In this document: positions 316 to 30,197 of the stretch, piece by piece
Layout of the letters: every line of letters begins with the position of its first letter
How positions within the stretch are numbered: the first letter of the stretch is position 1
IMG/VR virus record: IMGVR_UViG_3300025648_000012
Location: 62,001 to 126,000 of that record
Reading direction: 5' to 3' (one strand)
From: a virus
Length of the DNA: 64,000 nucleotides
Position numbers and translations under genes: made by a program
Notes under the pieces: generated by a model
Seen by the model: only the letters and a program-made list of their open reading frames with translations
What the model was told of the DNA's origin: nothing
Database searches by the model: none

Positions 316-1003
316 ATTAGTTCAGGTTGGTACCAGACTGGTTATTCAAGATTTTGAGACCTATAAAGTTCTCAAGCAGGAAGGAATACCAGTTCTATGC
401 TTTGAAAAACAATTTCTTGGCACTTTAGCTACCTTTTTAGATTGCCCGATTGAGATTGTAGAATTCAAAGAGTTGGAGTTACCATTTTTAGAAAAAGTAA
501 TAGAATTTTGGAATAGGCAGCCCAATAGAACAATTGCAGTTTCAAAAGGTTTAGTTAAGACAATAAAATTAACTGCACCAGTTGTAGTTACTAAAGCAAT
601 GAACTCTGTTACTTCTGCCATAATTGAGTTCTACGAACATTATGGTTTCTCAGCGAAAACTATTATTTCTGAAACAAAAAAGGGAGATAGAAATTTAGTA
701 GTCATTTCACTCGAATTTACTGGTGTGCCAAAAATACCAAAAGTTGAAACTCAAGAAGAGGCCGTTTTTGATTTCGGTTATACGAGGTTAACTCTAACTC
801 TTAACTCTAATAAAAGATGGTATTCAAAGGTATCAGTTAAAACTGGAGATAAGTATAGCATAATCCATACTTCTGAATTTCTAACAAGGGATGTTTCCGG
901 TATAGGCAGCATGATTTCCGCCCTAATTGGAATACATAATTCTCAACAAGAAAACCTTGTTAAAACAGCAGGAGTAAAATTTGAGAGTTTCTCTGATGAC
1001 TAA
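296..1003 (+). CDS. Hypothetical protein upstream of topoisomerase genes
   Basis: 235-residue protein that I do not recognise. It has mixed alpha/beta composition, no obvious membrane segment and no catalytic motif. The ATG at 296 is preferred over an upstream in-frame TTG at 290; GGGG at 281-284 lies upstream. Its 3' end overlaps the start of the topoisomerase ATPase subunit, so the two are probably translationally coupled. A replication-associated role is only suggested by position. Confidence 0.65.
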   Translation: MDTKIVKLVQVGTRLVIQDFETYKVLKQEGIPVLCFEKQFLGTLATFLDCPIEIVEFKELELPFLEKVIEFWNRQPNRTIAVSKGLVKTIKLTAPVVVTKAMNSVTSAIIEFYEHYGFSAKTIISETKKGDRNLVVISLEFTGVPKIPKVETQEEAVFDFGYTRLTLTLNSNKRWYSKVSVKTGDKYSIIHTSEFLTRDVSGIGSMISALIGIHNSQQENLVKTAGVKFESFSDD

Positions 1004-3305
1004 CTACAATGAAAAGTCAATCCAAAGGTTTGCTGGACTTCAGGGTATTCGCAAAAAACCTACTCCCTACATTGGTCCTAACGACAGCTCTGGGCTGTTT
1101 ACGATTTTAAGAGAACCTGCGGATAACGCTGTAGACCAAGCATTAGCTGGTAGAAACAATCAAGTTACTATTGCTGTGGATAATGGGTCATATTGGGTTA
1201 TTGATTCTGGAGAAGGTATTCCTGTAGGTGTAAAAGAGTTTGAAAATGAGCATGGTCAAAAAGAAAAACTAAGTACACTGTATGTTGCTACTGGTTTAAC
1301 TCATGGCGGTTCTAACTTTGCAGGTTCTTCTATATCAAGAGGGTGCTTTGCAGGGGATACTAAAGTACGCCTTCTTAATGGTAAAGTGGTTAGTATGGAG
1401 AGGCTTTATTCAAGATGGAATAAAAATCAAACTCCTATAGCCATAATGTCCTATAACCTAAAGTTCAAAAAACTTGAACCGTCCTATATTAGTCATGTTC
1501 AATTAACTAAACATACTCGAAATTTAACTAAGGTTATTTTTGATACTGGAGAATCAGTTTTGGTTACTCCAGATCATCCTTTCTTTGTTAAAAAAGGTGG
1601 AAGCATAGCTAAAGTTAGAGCAGAGAATCTTAATGGAGGAGATTCTCTTGTAACTTATTATTCTTCGGATATTCCTGATATAGTTAAGTATTGGAATCAT
1701 ACTGTTACTGGAGTAGTTAGTATCCACAAAACCAATTCTATTCCAGTCTATGACATAACCGTAGATAATACCCATACGTTTTTTATTGAACCTGGTATTT
1801 TGGTATCAAACACTCATGGCCTCGGCCAGAAGGCAACTAATGCAATGTCTAAAGAGTTTATTGTCTGGACTTGTAGGGAGGGAAAATGGTACTCAATAAA
1901 GTATAGGGATGCTAAATTAGTTGAAAATGTAAAAGAGTGCCAAAAACCTAAGCTTCCCTTTGGGTTAAAGTCTTCAAAAGGAACAGTGGTAAAGTTTATT
2001 CCAGATTTAACCCTATTCCAGAAAGGGTCAATAATGCCAAGTTCCGAGTTAGTTAGCTGGGCTAAACTAACTAGCTATTTGGTTCCTAACTTTTTAATAA
2101 CTTTAGTTTCCAGCAAGGGAACAAAGCAATTCAAAAGCAAAGGACCACAGGAATATATTAAAGATAGGCTGGAAGAGCAGGGAGGAGAGCAACTTGGTAA
2201 AACCTTCCAATACTCTTCTCGAGAATTGGACGTTGCTGTGGCTTTCTGCAACTATGAAGGCTCTGGAGTTAATTCTTACACTAATGGACTACTCAACAAA
2301 GATGGTGGGGACCATTATGAAGCGCTTAAAGATTCATTGTTTAAGAGCTTGGTTAACCTTAAAAAAGTAAAGCAAAAATTTACAAAGGCAGATGTGGTAG
2401 ATGGGTTAATTGGTCTTATAAATTACAAGATTGCAGCCCCCAAGTTTAACAATCAACCGAAGGATAAGCTCATTGATGACCGGGTATATCCTGTAGCTGT
2501 AGAGCAACTAACTAAAGCCTGGTTAGAGTTTTGGAAAACTCATAAATCCATGCTAAATGAGGTTTTGGAAAGAGCGTCTCTCCTTAGGTCTAAGACAGCG
2601 GACTTTTTGAAGGACAAAAAATTAGTTAAGAATGTTAACGCTCAGAAGAAAAAGCAGTCAGCGAAATTTGGAACCATTCAAGGTAAGTGTCCAATAGATA
2701 AACGTGAGCTAATATTGGTAGAGGGAGACTCGGCGGGCGGAGAAGCGAAAAAAGCTAGGGATAAAACTTTCCAAGCTATTTATCCACTCAAAGGTAAACC
2801 GCTAAATGTAATGGAAGTTGGAATAGATAAGATAAATAGCAATGAAGAAATTGTAGGGTTATTAGCAGCATTAGATGTAGACTTATCTGGTAAATCGCAA
2901 GATATTCCCTATGGTAAGATTATTCTTATGAGTGATGCAGATGTAGACGGAAAGCATATTGGCGTTTTATTACTTGGATTCCTATATAAATACTTACCAA
3001 ATCTTTTCAAACTAGGTAAGGTTTATGCGGTAAGGGCGCCATTATTCAAAGGGCACCACAAAGGTAAAACGTTATTTGGTATGACAAAAGAAGAGGTATA
3101 TAAGCAAGCGGGAACAGATAAAGTCCAACTATCTTACCTAAAAGGTTGGGGTGAAATTTCTGGCACTGATTTAGCGTGTGGATTGAAGCCTGGAGTAAGA
3201 AAGTTATACAAACTACAACCTCCTGAAAATGCAGACAAAAAGGACTTTGAAAAGTTGCTTGGTACTTCTCCAGATTTTAGGAAGAAACTTTTGGGAGTGG
3301 CGTAA
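996..3305 (+). CDS. DNA topoisomerase II ATPase/TOPRIM subunit (GyrB/T4 gp39-like), intein-interrupted
   Basis: Large subunit of a type IIA topoisomerase, which hydrolyses ATP to drive strand passage during replication. The N-terminal GHKL ATPase fold shows IRKKPTPYIG near residue 20, the asparagine/glutamate region REPADNAVDQ, and the glycine motif THGLGQKATNAMS, which is split by an intein. The TOPRIM domain follows with EGDSAGGEA (about residue 572) and SDADVDG (about 650). Without the intein the product is about 613 residues, close to phage gyrase-type ATPase subunits. A TTG at 981 has the better Shine-Dalgarno (AGGAG at 970) and may be the true start; ATG 996 is given as the conservative choice. 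The partner subunit starts 3 bases after the stop. Confidence 0.93.
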   Translation: MTNYNEKSIQRFAGLQGIRKKPTPYIGPNDSSGLFTILREPADNAVDQALAGRNNQVTIAVDNGSYWVIDSGEGIPVGVKEFENEHGQKEKLSTLYVATGLTHGGSNFAGSSISRGCFAGDTKVRLLNGKVVSMERLYSRWNKNQTPIAIMSYNLKFKKLEPSYISHVQLTKHTRNLTKVIFDTGESVLVTPDHPFFVKKGGSIAKVRAENLNGGDSLVTYYSSDIPDIVKYWNHTVTGVVSIHKTNSIPVYDITVDNTHTFFIEPGILVSNTHGLGQKATNAMSKEFIVWTCREGKWYSIKYRDAKLVENVKECQKPKLPFGLKSSKGTVVKFIPDLTLFQKGSIMPSSELVSWAKLTSYLVPNFLITLVSSKGTKQFKSKGPQEYIKDRLEEQGGEQLGKTFQYSSRELDVAVAFCNYEGSGVNSYTNGLLNKDGGDHYEALKDSLFKSLVNLKKVKQKFTKADVVDGLIGLINYKIAAPKFNNQPKDKLIDDRVYPVAVEQLTKAWLEFWKTHKSMLNEVLERASLLRSKTADFLKDKKLVKNVNAQKKKQSAKFGTIQGKCPIDKRELILVEGDSAGGEAKKARDKTFQAIYPLKGKPLNVMEVGIDKINSNEEIVGLLAALDVDLSGKSQDIPYGKIILMSDADVDGKHIGVLLLGFLYKYLPNLFKLGKVYAVRAPLFKGHHKGKTLFGMTKEEVYKQAGTDKVQLSYLKGWGEISGTDLACGLKPGVRKLYKLQPPENADKKDFEKLLGTSPDFRKKLLGVA
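1344..1811 (+). other. Mini-intein in the topoisomerase ATPase subunit
   Basis: In-frame protein-splicing element of 156 residues, Cys117 to Asn272 of the host protein. Block A begins CFAGDTKVRLLNG. Block B is seen as VTPDHPFF, with the expected threonine and histidine. Block F is VYDITVDNTHTFF, and the C-terminal junction is GILVSN followed by extein Thr. The flanking exteins join as SSISRG/THGLGQ, restoring the GHKL glycine motif. There is no LAGLIDADG or HNH homing domain, so this is a mini-intein. The usual penultimate histidine is replaced by serine. Confidence 0.92.
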
Positions 3306-3308
3306 ACA

Positions 3309-5237
3309 ATGAAAACTACAACTGAAAAAGTAATAGAGAAATTTATAGAAGCCCCTTTCTTAAAATTCTCCTTACGTAACTACAAAGAATATGGAATTGC
3401 AGTATTAGAAGACCGTGCAGTTCCAGCAATTCAGGATGGTCTAAAACCAGTGCATAGAAGAGCTATTTGGGCAGCACATTCTCTTGGTGCTAATTCTACA
3501 AGTAGGTGGGTTAAATCAGCAAGGGTTGTTGGAGATGTAATTGGTAGATTTCACCCTCACGGTGACTGCCTTCGGGGGGATACTATTGTACCGTTACTAA
3601 ATGGAGAAACCCCAACTATAAAGGAGTTAGCGGAAAATTACTTAAGTAAAAAATGGGTTCTATCTTATGATAGTAAAACTAAAAAATATGTACGAGCTAG
3701 AGCCTATGCTTGGAGATTGGGTCAGATTACTGATACGTTTTATAGAATTACTCTGAATACTGGAGATGTACTTGAGGCCACAGGAAACCACAAGTTTTTT
3801 ACTGAAAGGGGCCAAATAGAGATCAGTAACCTAACTATGGATGATATCTTAATAGGAGGGTACACCTATCATATTTCCAAGGACGCTGTACCTCATTGGA
3901 GAATTTTCGCTATAGAAAAAATAGTCTTAAAACACAAAGAAGAATTTTACGATTTTACAGTCGATGGCTATGCTAACATGATAGTTTGTCCTGCGGGCAA
4001 TCCTTCGACATTTGTCGTAGTACACAACTCATCGGCATACGGAGCTATAGTTGGAATGACCAATGTAGGTAAGTCAATAAATAACATCCCTATTGGTTTG
4101 TTTGAAGGTGGTGGAAACTGGGGCAGTTGGAGTTCTCATACCGCTGCTGCCTACAGATATACTGAATTAAAACTTTCAAAATTTACTGACTCAGTATTGC
4201 TAAACCCTTTTTACTTACCCGTAATTGAGTACGGTCCTAACTTTGATGATTCCACAGTAGAGCCCTTGGTATTGCCTGCTCTACTTCCTATATTATTCCT
4301 TAACGGGTCATCAGGTATGGCTCCTGGTGCTAGATCTGAAATACCTAGTTGTACGCTAAAAAGCGTAATTCAGACACTGAATGAGATATATTCAGGACTG
4401 CCTATAACCCCTGAGTTGCTATATAGGAATCTTAGGTTTAGGTCTTGCTATGGGGCTTTGGAAGACAAACCAATAGGCTCAGAAGTTGAAGAAAGAAAGT
4501 CAATTTTCAAAACTATGAAAGGGTCTGTTCTCCTTCATTCAAACTTTAAGGAAGTTAAACCCAATGTTTGGGAGGCTACAACTTTTGGCCCTGTAGCGGA
4601 TTCCCCTTCCATTATTGACCGAATACGTAACAGAGTTTCGTCTGTAGTATCAGTGGAAGACAGTTCAGATTCAGATTCAAAATTTGGAAAACTTACTGTA
4701 GTGTTTAAGCGGGGAGTAGAAGATTCTGACATTGAAAAAGTTAGAACCATTCTTGATTCTAAAGAAAACTATATTCTAAACCTTACTGACCGCTATGTAG
4801 ACGAAAAAGGCCTACTGGCAGCCCGTTTGTTTAATGCTTCTCTTACAGAAGCTTTTAAGAAATGGATTGAATTTAGAATTGACCTAGAAGTTAAAGCTTG
4901 TTCCTATTGGATTGAAGAGTATAAAATTCAACTAGCTAAAACTAAATTGCTAATGTTAGCAGTTGACAATGTTGATATAATTCTTAAATCCTTAAAGCGT
5001 AAGGAAAAACAATTAGAATTAGAGATATGGCTAGCAAAGGAATTAAAAATATCAGTGGAGGACGCCAAGACAATTTATTCTTTGCAGGTTAGGCAATTGC
5101 GGTCATTAGAAAGAGAACCCCTTGAGGAAAAAGAAAAGTCGTTGCTAGCTAAGTCTAAAAAGTTAGACCAGAGAAGAAAAGATCCATTCCCTTTTATGAA
5201 GTCCCAGTTAAATGAGCTATTTCTGCCAGAAAAATAA
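3309..5237 (+). CDS. DNA topoisomerase II cleavage subunit (GyrA/ParC/T4 gp52-like), intein-interrupted
   Basis: DNA-cleaving and religating subunit of the topoisomerase whose ATPase subunit is encoded just upstream. Family motifs include RAVPAIQDGLKPVHRR (about residues 36-51), SARVVGDVIGRFHPHGD (ending at residue 86), and AAYRYTELKLSK, where the tyrosine of RYTE is the expected catalytic residue. The C-terminal part is rich in charged helices and lacks the GyrA beta-pinwheel, so the enzyme resembles T4-type topoisomerase more than a supercoiling gyrase. Removing the intein leaves about 488 residues, near T4 gp52 size. A promoter lies immediately downstream, which suggests this operon ends here. 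Confidence 0.93.
   Translation: MKTTTEKVIEKFIEAPFLKFSLRNYKEYGIAVLEDRAVPAIQDGLKPVHRRAIWAAHSLGANSTSRWVKSARVVGDVIGRFHPHGDCLRGDTIVPLLNGETPTIKELAENYLSKKWVLSYDSKTKKYVRARAYAWRLGQITDTFYRITLNTGDVLEATGNHKFFTERGQIEISNLTMDDILIGGYTYHISKDAVPHWRIFAIEKIVLKHKEEFYDFTVDGYANMIVCPAGNPSTFVVVHNSSAYGAIVGMTNVGKSINNIPIGLFEGGGNWGSWSSHTAAAYRYTELKLSKFTDSVLLNPFYLPVIEYGPNFDDSTVEPLVLPALLPILFLNGSSGMAPGARSEIPSCTLKSVIQTLNEIYSGLPITPELLYRNLRFRSCYGALEDKPIGSEVEERKSIFKTMKGSVLLHSNFKEVKPNVWEATTFGPVADSPSIIDRIRNRVSSVVSVEDSSDSDSKFGKLTVVFKRGVEDSDIEKVRTILDSKENYILNLTDRYVDEKGLLAARLFNASLTEAFKKWIEFRIDLEVKACSYWIEEYKIQLAKTKLLMLAVDNVDIILKSLKRKEKQLELEIWLAKELKISVEDAKTIYSLQVRQLRSLEREPLEEKEKSLLAKSKKLDQRRKDPFPFMKSQLNELFLPEK
3567..4028 (+). other. Mini-intein in the topoisomerase cleavage subunit
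   Basis: 154-residue in-frame splicing element, Cys87 to Asn240 of the precursor. Block A reads CLRGDTIVPLLNGE. A block B-like segment is TGDVLEATGNHKFF. The block F region EFYDFTVDGYANMIV is followed by a terminal VVVHN and extein Ser. Joining the exteins recreates HPHGD/SSAYG, a conserved topoisomerase segment about 35 residues before the catalytic tyrosine. No homing endonuclease domain is present. It retains the canonical penultimate His-Asn, unlike the intein in the partner gene. Confidence 0.93.
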
Positions 5238-6589: not shown

Positions 6590-6603
6590 GGTAATCGGGC
6601 TAT

Positions 6604-6647
6604 TTAGTGGGTGGTAAAACTGTAAAAAGGGGGTTACCACCCACTAA
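6604..6647 (+). terminator. Perfect 14-bp hairpin between genes
   Basis: TTAGTGGGTGGTAA (6604-6617) pairs exactly with TTACCACCCACTAA (6634-6647) around a 16-base loop, 14 bases after the histone-like gene stop. The stem is strong, but the 3' flank (GTTTAC) is only slightly T-rich. It is probably a transcription terminator or a 3'-end stabilising structure. Confidence 0.6.
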
Positions 6648-6682
6648 GTTTACACAGGCGAAACCATAGAAGGGGAATAAAA

Positions 6683-13426: not shown

Positions 13427-13503
13427 GTGCCCGTAGCTCAACTGGATAGAGCACCAGCCTTCTAAGCTGGGGGTCGCTGGTTCGAGTCCAGCCGGGCACG
13501 CCA
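13427..13503 (+). tRNA. tRNA-Arg (anticodon UCU)
   Basis: Complete cloverleaf. Acceptor GTGCCCG (13427-13433) pairs with CGGGCAC (13493-13499). The D-arm is GCTC/GAGC. The anticodon stem CCAGC/GCTGG encloses CTTCTAA with anticodon TCT. The T-arm GCTGG/CCAGC encloses TTCGAGT. Discriminator G and an encoded CCA end at 13503. It reads AGA, which is used heavily for arginine in this AT-rich window, so it likely supports phage translation. Confidence 0.96.
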
Positions 13504-13521: not shown

Positions 13522-13725
13522 ATGCTAAAGCCAACGGGACAACTAAGGTACTTGAAGCAGTTTCTTCCTATATTTCGTGCGGAAGAACGTTCATCTTTGA
13601 ATACTAATCTTGGTTATACAAAAATAACTTTACAGCGTCTTTGGGTAGATGAACAAAATCCAGAAGGGAGTGAGTGGAGACCAGATGAGGATATTCCAAT
13701 AGTTTACGAGGTAACATTATGCTAA
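13522..13725 (+). CDS. Small hypothetical protein, paralogue of the next gene
   Basis: 67-residue protein beginning MLKPTGQLRYLKQF, with a C-terminal KITLQRLWVDEQNPEGSEWR segment. The following gene has the same start (MLKPTHRLRFIRR) and a matching VKLQQYW...PPEWRD segment, so the two are tandem paralogues. The reading frames overlap by seven bases. AGGGGTAAAA precedes the ATG. Function unknown. Confidence 0.6.
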   Translation: MLKPTGQLRYLKQFLPIFRAEERSSLNTNLGYTKITLQRLWVDEQNPEGSEWRPDEDIPIVYEVTLC

Positions 13726-13928
13726 AACCAACACATAGATTGAGGTTTATTCGGAGGATAGGTACTGAGCAAATCATACAGCCTAATGATAAAAACTATA
13801 GGTTGTTTGCAGGAACTGCTGTTTCTCCATGTGTTAAACTTCAACAATACTGGGAATGCCCACAAAATAGCAAACCTCCAGAATGGAGAGATGCTTATTA
13901 TATAGTTTTAGATACAGTACGTCTGTAA
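13719..13928 (+). CDS. Small hypothetical protein, paralogue of the previous gene
   Basis: 69-residue protein sharing the MLKPT-LR-(Y/F) start and the (I/V)xLQxxW...EWR core with its upstream neighbour, evidence of a local gene duplication. No known domain. It is the last gene before the structured non-coding stretch. Confidence 0.6.
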   Translation: MLKPTHRLRFIRRIGTEQIIQPNDKNYRLFAGTAVSPCVKLQQYWECPQNSKPPEWRDAYYIVLDTVRL

Positions 13929-13945
13929 ATAATAGGTTAGAACAA

Positions 13946-14196
13946 GCGCGCTCCCGCGCGAGTAAGGAGCTCAGTACTGTTTCCCCTTTACAGTACAAAA
14001 CCTTTCGGTAGATTGAGCATAACCGTCCCAATTTGGGTGCAAGGGAAAGTTGAGTGGCAACTCAGCCCCAGCTGCAGGGGATATAACTATCCGGTGGAAA
14101 CAAGCTACGAGTGCGCTCGTAGGGCTATGCCACAGCCTTTACATGACCGCCGGAGGGCTTGTAGGTAGATAGCCCTTAAATGCGTGCAGCACCCAA
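13946..14196 (+). ncRNA. Candidate structured non-coding RNA with pseudoknot
   Basis: A 293-base gene-free gap (13929-14221) packed with complementary segments. Hairpins: GCGCG/CGCGC (13946-13950 with 13955-13959), GTACTGT/ACAGTAC (13974-13980 with 13990-13996), GTTGAGT/ACTCAGC (14049-14055 with 14060-14066), CTACGAG/CTCGTAG (14105-14111 with 14116-14122). Long-range helices: TTGGGTGC (14033-14040) with GCACCCAA (14189-14196), GGGCTAT (14122-14128) with ATAGCCC (14169-14175), and ACAGCC (14132-14137) with GGCTTGT (14156-14162, one bulge). CCGGTGG (14091-14097) with CCGCCGG (14147-14153) crosses the last two, giving a pseudoknot. It matches no RNA family I can name and lies 440 bases after the tRNA. 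Confidence 0.65.
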
Positions 14197-14221
14197 CCTT
14201 TTAACACATAAGGAGTGTAGA

Positions 14222-14803
14222 ATGGAAAAAATAACTGCAACGAAAGTAATTGAACCCTTAGAAACGAATTTGGTTGAGTACGTTAAAGAGCATCTTTCTA
14301 CTAAAATTAGTAAATCTAAACTCGATCCTATCGAAACGTATGAAGGAGGAGACGTTTATAATTTTGGGGATGATGAAACTGGTTACTATGTTCTTGTAGT
14401 AAGAAATGAAGTTGTATACTTTGTTAGGTACAAAAAAATAAAACACAATCAGATGCACTTTGGTAGGCAAGTGTTGGTTTATAGTAATCGAGTTGTACCA
14501 GAAACAGCCGAATTTGCTAGGTACATATTTTTTCAAAAGCTATTGCCTAGATACCACTCACTAATTGCTGACCAATTGCAAACACCTGACGGTAAACGTT
14601 TTTGGCAATATTCTATGATTTATTCTTTTGGAAAACATTATGTATATTTTTTGGATAGAAGGTCTTCTCCAAATAGGTTAATTCAGTTGCATAACCGATC
14701 TGACATGAATTTATATGGAGATCAACTTTGGGGTACTACAGAAGGTCACAAAAGAACTTTTGCTGTAATTAGTGATAGAGCATTAAAATTAGCAACAAAG
14801 TAA
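14222..14803 (+). CDS. Hypothetical phage protein
   Basis: 193-residue alpha/beta protein. ATG 14222 follows ATAAGGAGTGTAGA and is preferred over an in-frame ATG at 14180, which falls inside the structured RNA. A distinctive C-terminal region has LIADQLQTPDGKRFW, then YSFGKHYVYFLDRR, then LWGTTEGHKRTFAVISD. I have the impression of a widespread uncharacterised phage family but cannot name a function. It lies between two RNA-structured regions. Confidence 0.65.
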   Translation: MEKITATKVIEPLETNLVEYVKEHLSTKISKSKLDPIETYEGGDVYNFGDDETGYYVLVVRNEVVYFVRYKKIKHNQMHFGRQVLVYSNRVVPETAEFARYIFFQKLLPRYHSLIADQLQTPDGKRFWQYSMIYSFGKHYVYFLDRRSSPNRLIQLHNRSDMNLYGDQLWGTTEGHKRTFAVISDRALKLATK

Positions 14804-14828
14804 TTAGTGCAGTACACAAAAGGCCTTT

Positions 14829-14891
14829 GCTACGGGCCAATAATTTTAGCCGCCTAAAAGCTGCCATTGCGAAAAGATGGCCCCGTATAGC
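14829..14891 (+). ncRNA. Structured leader upstream of the DNA polymerase gene
   Basis: GCTACGGGCCA (14829-14839) pairs with TGGCCCCGTATAGC (14878-14891) with two small bulges. Inside is a perfect hairpin, TTTTAG/CTAAAA (14844-14849 with 14854-14859), around a CCGC loop. The structure sits 30 bases upstream of the polymerase start and could be a cis-regulatory leader or small RNA. No riboswitch family is recognised. Confidence 0.45.
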
Positions 14892-14921
14892 AGTAAGCGG
14901 GATTAAAAGAAGGAATTTTTC

Positions 14922-17747
14922 ATGCCTCTAGCTCCCTTTCTTCCAAAAGACTGGAACGACCATTCTCAGCGACTCTTAGTAATTTTGGAAAATACTCCAG
15001 AAGAGTGTGCTATTCAAAATACTCTAAATACTAAAATAGTAATGAACCCTGCAATGTACCCAAAGCATGGTTTACCTGTTGCTATATTTCCTTTTTCTGA
15101 TAGGGATTACCACAATCTAAAGCCCAATGCAAAGGGTATTTTGCTTTCTAAATACCGCGCTAAATGCCTAGCTTTCATTGAAAAGTATAAACCAACACAC
15201 GTTATTTTTTCAGGCAATGATAATCCTTGGGACATTCCTTTTAACCAGTTGGGTTGGGTTTATAAGAAAAATGGAGTTAGAGTAACCACTTCTTTAGATT
15301 TAGATAAAATCTACAGCTACAAAGGAGGGGTTTATGCCAACGCAGTTGGTCTTTTTATAGACCACCTTAATACTCTACTTGGAACTTCTAATGGACGCCC
15401 CCTACAGAACATTGAACCATCTCCAGTTTACGTAGATACGTTAGAAAAATTTGAAAAACTTTTAGCTAAACTGGAAGAAAGTAGAGTGATAGCAATAGAT
15501 ACAGAAACAGCTGGATTATCTGTACACACCAACAATGCACTCTATACAGTTCAGTTTAGTGTTTCTTCAACTAAAGCATATATCGTTCCAGTAGACCATC
15601 CTACAACTCCCTTTTCTAAAGAAGACCTTAAGATAGTAAAACAAAAACTACGAAAGTTCTTTGCGAGTACTGGTAAAGAGCTTGTATTCTTTAATGGAAA
15701 ATTTGATTTGAGAATACTCCGTGTCTTTCTAAAAGTGGAGTTCATAAGGCATAAAATATGGGAAATTAGGTCTGGAGAACATGCTTTAGACGAAGGCGTA
15801 CAGCTATTAGTAAATTTTAAGCCTAAAGGAGCAAGTAAACTTTATAACCCAGGTAATTTAGCTAACACAGTATCGAGGTATGGTAACGATTTTTATTACG
15901 GATCAGCTTTCGGAAAGGATGACCGGTCTACAATAGGTCACATTGCTTGTGATAATCCAGATTTCTTAAAGTATGCAGCAATGGATGTTCAAACAATTTT
16001 TGGTGTTAGAGACTGCCAGCTACAAAGAGCAGAAAAACAAGGTAGGTTAAATTCTTTTAGAAAACACATGCTTTACCAGATGGGACCTACTGAACACCAA
16101 CTATCACTGCTTGAGCAAAATGGGTCTTTAGTTTCAATTCCAAAAATTAAAGAATTAGTCTCTAAAAAATCTCCTATAATTAAAATTATTGAGGAATCAA
16201 CTTTAGAACTTTCAATGTACCCCCAAGTAATACAGGCTAACAAGTTAGTTGCTCAAAAATCATCAACTGCAAACCCCTTATTTGGTACACCCTGGGTGTT
16301 TTCTTGGACAAAAGGAGACCATCTAAAAACATTATTTTTTGAAGTCTTGCAGCTTGCACCCTTATCAAAGACTAAGTCGGGTAAAGACGCTATTGACAAA
16401 GAATTTATTGCGTTTTACAAAGATAGGTCTTTTATTGTAGATTTGTATGGTCAATTAGCAGAAGCTAGAACAGTTGCAAGAACTTTCCTAACAGGAGTTT
16501 TGCAGAGGTTAGAATTATCAGAAGATAAAGATTCAAAAATGCGTTCAAGATTTGATGTATTCAATGTTGATACAGGACGCTTAGGTTCTGCTGACCCAAA
16601 CCAGCAGAATTTTCCTTCTCGTGGTAAGTTAGCAAAACTGGTTAAGTCTATATTCATAAGTGCTGAATCTCATATTTTAATCAAGTACGATTATTCAGCA
16701 CATGAAGTTAGATGCTGGGCAATAGCAGCAAACGACGAGGTACTCGGCTCCGTATTTGAAACAGGAAGACAGCTCCGTAGAAAGTTAATTAAAAATCCAA
16801 CAGAAGAAATACGGCAGGAAATAAAGAAAAAAGGTGACTTGCATATTCTTAATGTAAAGAGGTTTTTCAATAAATGGGTGGAAAAATCTGATCCATTGCG
16901 AGAAGCAGTTAAATCGGTTATATTTGGAGCAATCTACTTAATGACAGCAAGAACTCTTGGTAGAAATACGAAAAAACCTGAGATTGTTGAAATACAAGCG
17001 TTAATGCGAAAAGCTCGAGATGAAAAACAACCCATTGAACCGTACATGGAAAGACTTGAGGAGCTTTTAGAAGAGGATAGAACCGAGTATGCAAATAACA
17101 TTCTTAATAAACTATTTTCTGCATTTAAGAAATCTTCAAAATGGTTAGATTCCGTTACAAGAAGTGCCGCAAAAAAGCAACAAGCAGAGTCTCCAATAGG
17201 CCGAGTTAGGCATCTTTGGGCTACTCTTTTTGAAGATAAAAGTCTAACTGCTAAACAAATAAGAAGAGGAGCAAATGCTCCAATTCAGGGTTTTGGCTCT
17301 GAAATAGGTGTAGTTTCTTCCTACTTAATATGCAATACGTGGAATAAACTCTTTCCCAAAGTAAATGTTGAGTTTAGCAGAATAATCCACGATGCGTCTT
17401 ATTTCCATGTTCCAATAGAATACTCTGTAGAGTTTATTCATGTTATGTCATACATGGCAACTACTGGAGTTGCAGATTACTATGAAAGGCATTTTGGACT
17501 AAAAATGGTAGTCAATCCTGAGATAGAAATTGAGCTTGGAGTTTCCGATGACAAGTTTGAAAAATGGAATTGGGAACTGCCGTCTTTGGTTTCTTTAATG
17601 GAAAAAACACTAAAAGACAAGGGGGAAACCCACAGTCTAAAGCACATATTTAGATCTTGGAAGAATAACTCAATGAAAAATTTTCCACTATTGAATGTAG
17701 AGTTATCCAAGGAATTGAGAACTGAATACCAAAAACTTAGAGCATAA
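14922..17747 (+). CDS. DNA polymerase, family A (PolA-like)
   Basis: Replicative or repair DNA polymerase of 941 residues. An N-terminal domain of about 180 residues is unassigned. A 3'-5' exonuclease domain starts with IDTETAG (about 192). The polymerase domain has the TGRLGSADPNQQNFP region (about 550), motif A KYDYSAHEVR (about 590), motif B with R..K...FGAIY (about 660), NAPIQGFGSEIG, and motif C IIHDAS (about 823). Motif A departs from the usual DYSQIELR, and motif C has alanine where family A polymerases usually have glutamate after the catalytic aspartate. AGAAGGAATTTTTC precedes the ATG. It is likely the phage replicase together with the downstream clamp, helicase and primase. Confidence 0.93.
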   Translation: MPLAPFLPKDWNDHSQRLLVILENTPEECAIQNTLNTKIVMNPAMYPKHGLPVAIFPFSDRDYHNLKPNAKGILLSKYRAKCLAFIEKYKPTHVIFSGNDNPWDIPFNQLGWVYKKNGVRVTTSLDLDKIYSYKGGVYANAVGLFIDHLNTLLGTSNGRPLQNIEPSPVYVDTLEKFEKLLAKLEESRVIAIDTETAGLSVHTNNALYTVQFSVSSTKAYIVPVDHPTTPFSKEDLKIVKQKLRKFFASTGKELVFFNGKFDLRILRVFLKVEFIRHKIWEIRSGEHALDEGVQLLVNFKPKGASKLYNPGNLANTVSRYGNDFYYGSAFGKDDRSTIGHIACDNPDFLKYAAMDVQTIFGVRDCQLQRAEKQGRLNSFRKHMLYQMGPTEHQLSLLEQNGSLVSIPKIKELVSKKSPIIKIIEESTLELSMYPQVIQANKLVAQKSSTANPLFGTPWVFSWTKGDHLKTLFFEVLQLAPLSKTKSGKDAIDKEFIAFYKDRSFIVDLYGQLAEARTVARTFLTGVLQRLELSEDKDSKMRSRFDVFNVDTGRLGSADPNQQNFPSRGKLAKLVKSIFISAESHILIKYDYSAHEVRCWAIAANDEVLGSVFETGRQLRRKLIKNPTEEIRQEIKKKGDLHILNVKRFFNKWVEKSDPLREAVKSVIFGAIYLMTARTLGRNTKKPEIVEIQALMRKARDEKQPIEPYMERLEELLEEDRTEYANNILNKLFSAFKKSSKWLDSVTRSAAKKQQAESPIGRVRHLWATLFEDKSLTAKQIRRGANAPIQGFGSEIGVVSSYLICNTWNKLFPKVNVEFSRIIHDASYFHVPIEYSVEFIHVMSYMATTGVADYYERHFGLKMVVNPEIEIELGVSDDKFEKWNWELPSLVSLMEKTLKDKGETHSLKHIFRSWKNNSMKNFPLLNVELSKELRTEYQKLRA

Positions 17748-29891: not shown

Positions 29892-30197
29892 ATGGCTGTC
29901 TACCACAAACCCAATGCACTTTTATCGTATTCTTTGGAGAATTCAAAAATGAAACCTTTTGACTATGTAAAAATGAAACCTTTTAACTTGGAAGCCGCCC
30001 TTGCTGGTGCGCCAGTTGTAACTAGAGACGGTAGGCCAGTGAAAATAGCAGGGTATAACCCGGATGCTCATGCAAGCGGTACCCTGACTGGTTGGATTGA
30101 GAAATCAATAGCTGGGTGGAATAAAAAAAAGGGGGGGAGGGCTGAAATGAAGGCTCTTAAATGTACGCAGCGCCCAAACCTTTTATCCATACATTAG
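29892..30197 (+). CDS. Small phage protein with VVTRDGRPV motif
   Basis: 101-residue protein. The core FNLEAALAGAPVVTRDGRPVKI, followed by LTGWIEKSIAGWNKKGG, is a pattern I associate with many uncharacterised phage proteins. An in-frame 24-base duplication gives MKPFDYVK then MKPFNLEA. The last 15 codons share strong DNA similarity with the end of the structured RNA at 14.15-14.21 kb. ACAGGAGATTAGACTAA precedes the ATG. Confidence 0.6.
   Translation: MAVYHKPNALLSYSLENSKMKPFDYVKMKPFNLEAALAGAPVVTRDGRPVKIAGYNPDAHASGTLTGWIEKSIAGWNKKKGGRAEMKALKCTQRPNLLSIH

Follow-up and report, generated by a model that had tools for sequence, protein, structure and literature searches.

A stretch of 275 nt upstream of the DNA polymerase gene of a large, poorly known, jumbo-type bacteriophage (13930-14204) is non-coding and GC-rich, folds better than shuffled sequence and is without a relative in the collections searched. 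It is most likely an orphan phage RNA belonging to the tRNA-Arg operon, analogous to rnaC and rnaD of phage T4. The stretch is probably some kind of folded functional RNA, whether free or a leader, and it may plausibly act in trans as a stable phage RNA, a reading that we hold tentatively. Phage RNAs other than tRNA or mRNA are few; if the reading is true, a structured RNA next to tRNA-Arg would be present in a second phage unrelated to T4, and the tRNA operon would become a testable place to seek phage RNAs acting on host translation. Should the stretch be a mere GC-rich spacer, it would serve as a useful warning that helix counts made by eye do not exceed chance.

The window analyzed here is a stretch of 64,000 nucleotides, corresponding to bases 62001-126000 of the 142,721-base IMG/VR virus record IMGVR_UViG_3300025648_000012. 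The phage DNA polymerase is nearest to those of jumbo phages, such as Burkholderia phage BcepSauron and Achromobacter phage Motura (34-39% identity), and searches of IMG/VR, the named phages and GTDB genomes found no close relative. The + strand carries, in this order, tRNA-Arg(UCU), an ORF of 67 aa, an ORF of 69 aa, the gap 13929-14221, an ORF of 193 aa, the gap 14804-14921 and the DNA polymerase (Table 1). The tRNA-Arg is the only standard tRNA found across the 142.7-kb record. The two small ORFs that follow it begin alike (MLKP...), have codon biases of 0.32 (13522-13725) and 0.19 (13719-13928), and gave no PHROG or significant Pfam family. Elsewhere in the window, the phage DNA gyrase subunits B (981-3305) and A (3309-5237) are each split by their own small intein, with Pfam PF14890 above cut-off in both.

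Table 1. Features of the candidate RNA and its surroundings, in window coordinates.
Feature	Position	Strand	Remarks
tRNA-Arg (anticodon UCU)	13427-13503	+	ARAGORN; Rfam RF00005, 70.7 bits
Two small ORFs, 67 and 69 aa	13522-13725, 13719-13928	+	From the ORF list; between tRNA-Arg and RNA
Candidate structured RNA, whole, ~275 nt	13930-14204	+	GC 0.51 vs genome 0.37-0.40; non-coding; z -2.94
Possible global closing helix	13934-13938 (AGGUU)/14195-14199 (AACCU)	+	Pair probabilities 0.4-0.6, nested ensemble
Competing helix closing domain I alone	13935-13939/14020-14024 (GGUUA/UAACC)	+	Pair probability 0.04, nested ensemble
Domain I	13935-14024	+	13930-14024 alone z -2.81
Domain I hairpin	13946-13950/13955-13959	+	
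Domain I helix	13969-13973/14014-14018	+	Encloses hairpins 13974-13980/13990-13996 and 14000-14002/14007-14009
Domain II	14033-14196	+	Closed by 8-bp helix 14033-14040/14189-14196, pair probability ~0.75
Domain II hairpin	14049-14055/14060-14066	+	Stacks on 14043-14045/14067-14069
Crossing helix	14090-14097/14147-14154 (UCCGGUGG/CCGCCGGA)	+	8 bp; second most stable helix of the region
Domain II second hairpin	14105-14111/14116-14122	+	
Pseudoknot partner helix	14121-14128/14169-14176 (AGGGCUAU/AUAGCCCU)	+	Pair probability ~0.9 without pseudoknots
Alternative hairpin	14153-14159/14171-14177 (GAGGGCU/AGCCCUU)	+	Incompatible with helix 14121-14128/14169-14176
Shine-Dalgarno AAGGAG	14210-14215	+	Serves ORF 14222-14803
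ORF 14222-14803, 193 aa		+	PHROG 1349, function unknown; directly downstream of candidate RNA
DNA polymerase	14922-17747	+	Next-but-one to candidate RNA
Partial second copy of the last 60 nt of the RNA (14151-14210)	30136-30191	+	Overlaps end of ORF 29892-30197

Composition is the strongest evidence for a structured RNA. Structured RNAs in AT-rich genomes sit in long, GC-rich intergenic regions (PMC8632094), and a structured RNA is favored here because a GC-rich intergenic region in an AT-rich genome is that published signature. The stretch has a GC content of 51-54%, against 37-40% for the phage, and no other 250 bases in the window are as rich in GC. When genes were called by codon bias in stretches covering nearly the whole record, 39 intergenic regions of 50 nt or more remained, and among these the tRNA-Arg region ranks first in GC (0.545) and the region of the candidate RNA second (0.514); intergenic regions of at least 80 nt average 0.36 (sd 0.07). 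The sequence-only reading had described the stretch as gene-free, and this holds in all six frames, none of which contains an ORF with the codon bias of the phage; that bias is present in the neighboring small ORFs. The same reading had set the borders at 13946-14196. The stretch it delimited is real, but 13930-14204, set by the closing helices, fits better, beginning just past the stop of ORF 13719-13928 and ending just ahead of the Shine-Dalgarno of ORF 14222. The gap between stop and Shine-Dalgarno that the candidate RNA occupies is unusually long. No terminator-like site was found on the + strand between tRNA-Arg and the RNA or from the RNA to the next gene, and the only promoter-like match inside the RNA is weak. 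A 3' motif of the RNA was considered as a promoter and rejected, having just two copies in the record.

Folding gives moderate support to the stretch. Against shuffles that preserve dinucleotide composition, the MFE z value is -1.96 for the whole gap (13929-14221) and -2.94 for 13930-14204, the latter matched by 1 of 200 shuffles. When the domains are folded alone, 13930-14024 (z -2.81) and domain II (z -3.03) are likewise matched by 1 of 200 shuffles each, but these borders and domains were picked after the structure had been seen, and the true significance is lower than the z values imply. Ranked against windows of equal length, 256 in all, the stretch comes first by raw MFE and 19th by z, a rank at which energy alone is not unusual in this phage; its reverse strand folds nearly as well (z -1.9). 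The complementary segments listed earlier are real and lie where they had been placed, and the 8-bp helix closing domain II is perfect. Their number is ordinary for the base composition, however, with 63 helices at or below -8 kcal/mol against a shuffle mean of 63.4, and 7 helices of at least 8 bp against 7.3. Since the number of helices shows no excess over dinucleotide shuffles, a count of complementary segments made by eye is not evidence, and of the description "strongly structured" what stands is an energy moderately beyond chance. Under the same measure, T4 rnaC has a z of -4.2 and rnaD of -1.0; these values straddle that of the candidate RNA, which thus lies in the range of real phage RNAs.

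The pseudoknot is a separate question. The pairing first noticed as 7 bp (14091-14097 with 14147-14153) exists and is really 8 bp long, 14090-14097/14147-14154, with one G-U. As had been claimed, it crosses two helices, 14121-14128/14169-14176 (8 bp) and 14100-14106/14156-14162. The strongest crossing pair, formed by the crossing helix and its partner 14121-14128/14169-14176, has a summed energy of -34.7, which 5 of 150 shuffles reach. If a generic 7 kcal/mol is charged for the knot, the knotted fold scores -100.7 against -97.9 for the nested one, so that the knot is 2.8 kcal/mol better. The crossing helix also forms unknotted, in a nested fold at -92.7 against an optimum of -95.4. Because the same helix thus forms only 2.7 kcal/mol above the optimum without a knot, the crossing geometry is present and the knot itself is one possibility. 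Furthermore, the crossing helix minus its outer two pairs can coexist with the alternative hairpin 14153-14159/14171-14177, and the pseudoknot competes with several other folds lying within about 3-5 kcal/mol. On these energy models, formation of the named pseudoknot is rather doubtful.

The claim that the RNA belongs to no known family (tmRNA, RNase P, group I intron or ribozymes) was borne out. In a covariance search with 4227 Rfam models, the gathering score was reached in the window by tRNA-Arg alone, and nothing matched within 13850-14300 at E<=10, which covers tmRNA, RNase P RNA, 6S, SRP RNA, group I and II introns, the known riboswitches and ribozymes. Signatures of a group I core, a T-box and RNase P were also looked for by eye in the RNA and were absent. 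A blastn search against named phages and plasmids returned a sole match of 41 nt, inside the downstream ORF, and none in the RNA. The exact patterns CCGGTGGAAACAAGC, GCAGGGGATATAACTA, GGGTGCAAGGGAAAG, GACCGCCGGAGGGCTTG and CTTAAATGNNNGCAGCNCCCAA gave in IMG/VR no matches, or matches without flanking similarity, and CTTAAATGNNNGCAGCNCCCAA gave two chance matches in GTDB genomes with nothing alike beyond the motif; these patterns specify 15-19 bases, and relatives at 70-80% identity could escape them. A single-sequence covariance model of the RNA found nothing in 19 records picked by DNA polymerase, namely 13 related IMG/VR loci (34-39% identity) and 6 named jumbo phages (BcepSauron, Motura, Lu11 and others). 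Using the DNA polymerase as a handle in GTDB genomes, or the downstream ORF 14222-14803 as a handle for relatives, likewise yielded none. There is consequently no covariation support, as no homologue was found in Rfam, the named phages, the plasmids, IMG/VR, the GTDB genomes or the 19 jumbo-phage records. Regarding partner proteins, TROVE, TnpB-like proteins and reverse transcriptase were not found in the record, a negative that covers these three, the search for IscB having had no working control.

The only internal likeness is between the 3' end of the RNA and 30136-30191. With permissive scores, the two are 73% identical over 60 columns (blastn E 0.002); under strict scoring of the whole record, 0 of 60 shuffles reach the match, the best scoring 35 against 36. 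The similarity appears borderline significant. The second copy precedes another gene at about 30238 and lies at the 3' end of ORF 29892-30197, which is GC-rich and has about 60 nt in common with the RNA 3' end. Short peptide echoes of the end of this ORF occur in frames 0 and 2 of the stretch, and no convincing similarity between the RNA and the ORF was found beyond the last 60 nt. The ORF is small, and its MKPFNLEAALAGAPVVTRDG domain has relatives in several unrelated phages. The alternative hairpin 14153-14159/14171-14177 is the only hairpin of the RNA also present in the second copy, and it is predicted in both sequences when they are folded alone. The stem of the second copy differs by two substitutions, both of which retain pairing as G-U. 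In a comparison resting on one sequence pair, this hairpin would weakly favor the unknotted alternative.

An operon-embedded, processed RNA fits the anatomy best because a stop codon lies directly before the stretch, a Shine-Dalgarno directly after it, and no terminator-like site is found. Under this proposal, 13930-14204 would be transcribed within the tRNA-Arg operon as a non-coding RNA of ~275 nt and would be freed by nucleases trimming the adjoining tRNA and mRNA, with the closing helices marking its borders. The freed RNA would then persist as a stable phage RNA and act in trans; its simplest role would be to bind a protein or the translation machinery during infection. We infer transcription, processing, stability and action in trans from this arrangement. 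The earlier view of a gene-free structured RNA outside the known families is thus retained on its GC content, lack of coding bias, low-energy fold and long gap; nothing points to self-cleavage.

The stretch might instead act in cis, as a riboswitch-like or protein-binding leader through which ORF 14222-14803, and perhaps also the DNA polymerase gene after it, is controlled. It stops 5 nt ahead of the Shine-Dalgarno of ORF 14222, which is on the same strand; CCUU at 14198-14201 has two possible partners, the 5' closing strand or the Shine-Dalgarno; and the partial copy of its 3' end also precedes a gene. This reading is weakened because the predicted access of the Shine-Dalgarno is unchanged by the RNA: AAGGAG is predicted to be unpaired (0.92 or more) with or without the upstream RNA. 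Moreover, no intrinsic terminator lies between the RNA and ORF 14222, no riboswitch family of Rfam matches, and, with a same-strand ORF and a tRNA just upstream, the element would probably be an internal leader; we consider a leader unlikely. Another possibility is GC-rich DNA that is foreign or has decayed, left over from a gene or mobile segment of a phage with higher GC, in which case the helices would merely reflect composition. This would account for helix counts that equal those of shuffles, for a partial copy at the end of a GC-rich ORF that itself has relatives in several phages, and for the peptide echoes in two frames. Clear sharing is nonetheless limited to the last 60 nt, the folding energy is below that of dinucleotide-preserving shuffles, and no frame has coding bias, which makes such an origin unlikely.

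A self-cleaving or self-splicing RNA of a new type, with an HDV-like double pseudoknot or a group I-like core, would agree with the order of the helix strands (14090/14121/14147/14169), which is that of HDV-type pseudoknots, and with the lower energy of the knotted fold under the 7 kcal/mol penalty. Against it, no HDV, group I or other ribozyme family matches at E<=10, neither a catalytic C before the last strand nor a 3-bp P3 is present, and a nested fold can accommodate the crossing helix as well; there is also no exon pair for splicing, since the flanking gene is uninterrupted. Judged from these models, a ribozyme is very improbable. The stretch could also work as DNA, for example as an origin of replication or a packaging site close to the DNA polymerase gene; it is the most GC-rich of the window, gene-free and next-but-one to that gene. 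However, it is GC-rich and not AT-rich, has no iterons or other direct repeats and coincides with no turn in GC skew; such an element is very unlikely. Finally, the stretch could represent a novel class of phage RNA with a pseudoknot, either catalytic or forming a ribonucleoprotein, in a poorly sampled lineage with its own set of large RNAs, the phage also having a 1.3-kb structured-RNA candidate; this more ambitious view seems improbable.

Several other sites in the record were recorded alongside the candidate RNA. Outside the window, a gene-free stretch of 1.29 kb (L062:14806-16095; record about 140806-142095) has 45% GC in a phage of 38-40% GC. On the + strand it beats 40 of 40 shuffles (z -2.3), with z -0.8 on the - strand, and neither Rfam nor a blastn search of phages gave a match. 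It is a candidate giant phage RNA of GOLLD/ROOL size and is possibly more interesting than 13930-14204. A tRNA-like gene at record 3533-3611 (L058:3533-3611), with the anticodon-loop UGU (Thr) and a very long 3' helix, is missed by ARAGORN and falls below the Rfam tRNA cut-off (22.9 vs 29 bits), with z -5.1. Within the window, the gap 14804-14921 just before the DNA polymerase is a second GC-rich one (44%), with a possible three-way junction (GCUACGGG/CCCGUAUAGC) and a loop CCGC complementary to a downstream GCGG; a twister ribozyme was considered there and rejected (no Rfam match, z -0.1). A 93-nt gap at 6590-6682 carries a long near-perfect hairpin (UUAGUGGGUGGUAA...UUACCACCCACUAA; z -4.8), and the record end (L062:16470-16721) consists of tandem repeats with GGTTATAGGTAATAGT and TGCTATGTGCTAAGTACCAT units.

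Among the known systems, HDV-like ribozymes have a similar order of crossing helices. They differ from the candidate RNA, which has no Rfam match, no short P3 and an extra hairpin between the first two strands; the sequence before 14169 is GUAGGUAG, without a C, whereas HDV has its catalytic C just before the last P2 strand. Phage 5'-UTR motifs (manA, wcaG and other riboswitch-like leaders) place a structured RNA directly before a phage gene (PMC2864571); unlike them, the candidate RNA has no family match, no sequestered Shine-Dalgarno and no terminator, and the gene family downstream is uncharacterized. Phages and prophages also encode ROOL and GOLLD, which are large, elaborate RNAs with pseudoknots, frequently located close to tRNA genes and of unknown function (PMC12286853). 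They measure about 600-800 nt, and their Rfam models match the candidate RNA at no threshold tried (gathering, E<=10).

The closest likeness is to T4 rnaC (species 1) and rnaD (species 2), RNAs still described as having no known role (PMC3014915, PMC9697503). Like the candidate, they are phage-encoded, gene-free, downstream of tRNA-Arg, GC-richer than their genome and structured. They are shorter, at 139 and 119 nt vs ~275 nt here, and rnaC ends in a T-arm-like GGGUUCGAAUCCC, an end that the candidate RNA lacks. In the T4 gene order, rnaD and rnaC lie immediately downstream of tRNA-Arg. The location downstream of tRNA-Arg noted at the outset is correct, on the same strand and with no terminator-like site between, although in the present phage two small ORFs intervene. 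The relation is one of analogy and not of membership because the candidate has no sequence similarity to rnaC or rnaD (98 and 115 of 300 shuffles score as high), and it is in gene order, composition and structure that the phage RNA proposed here would resemble those of T4.
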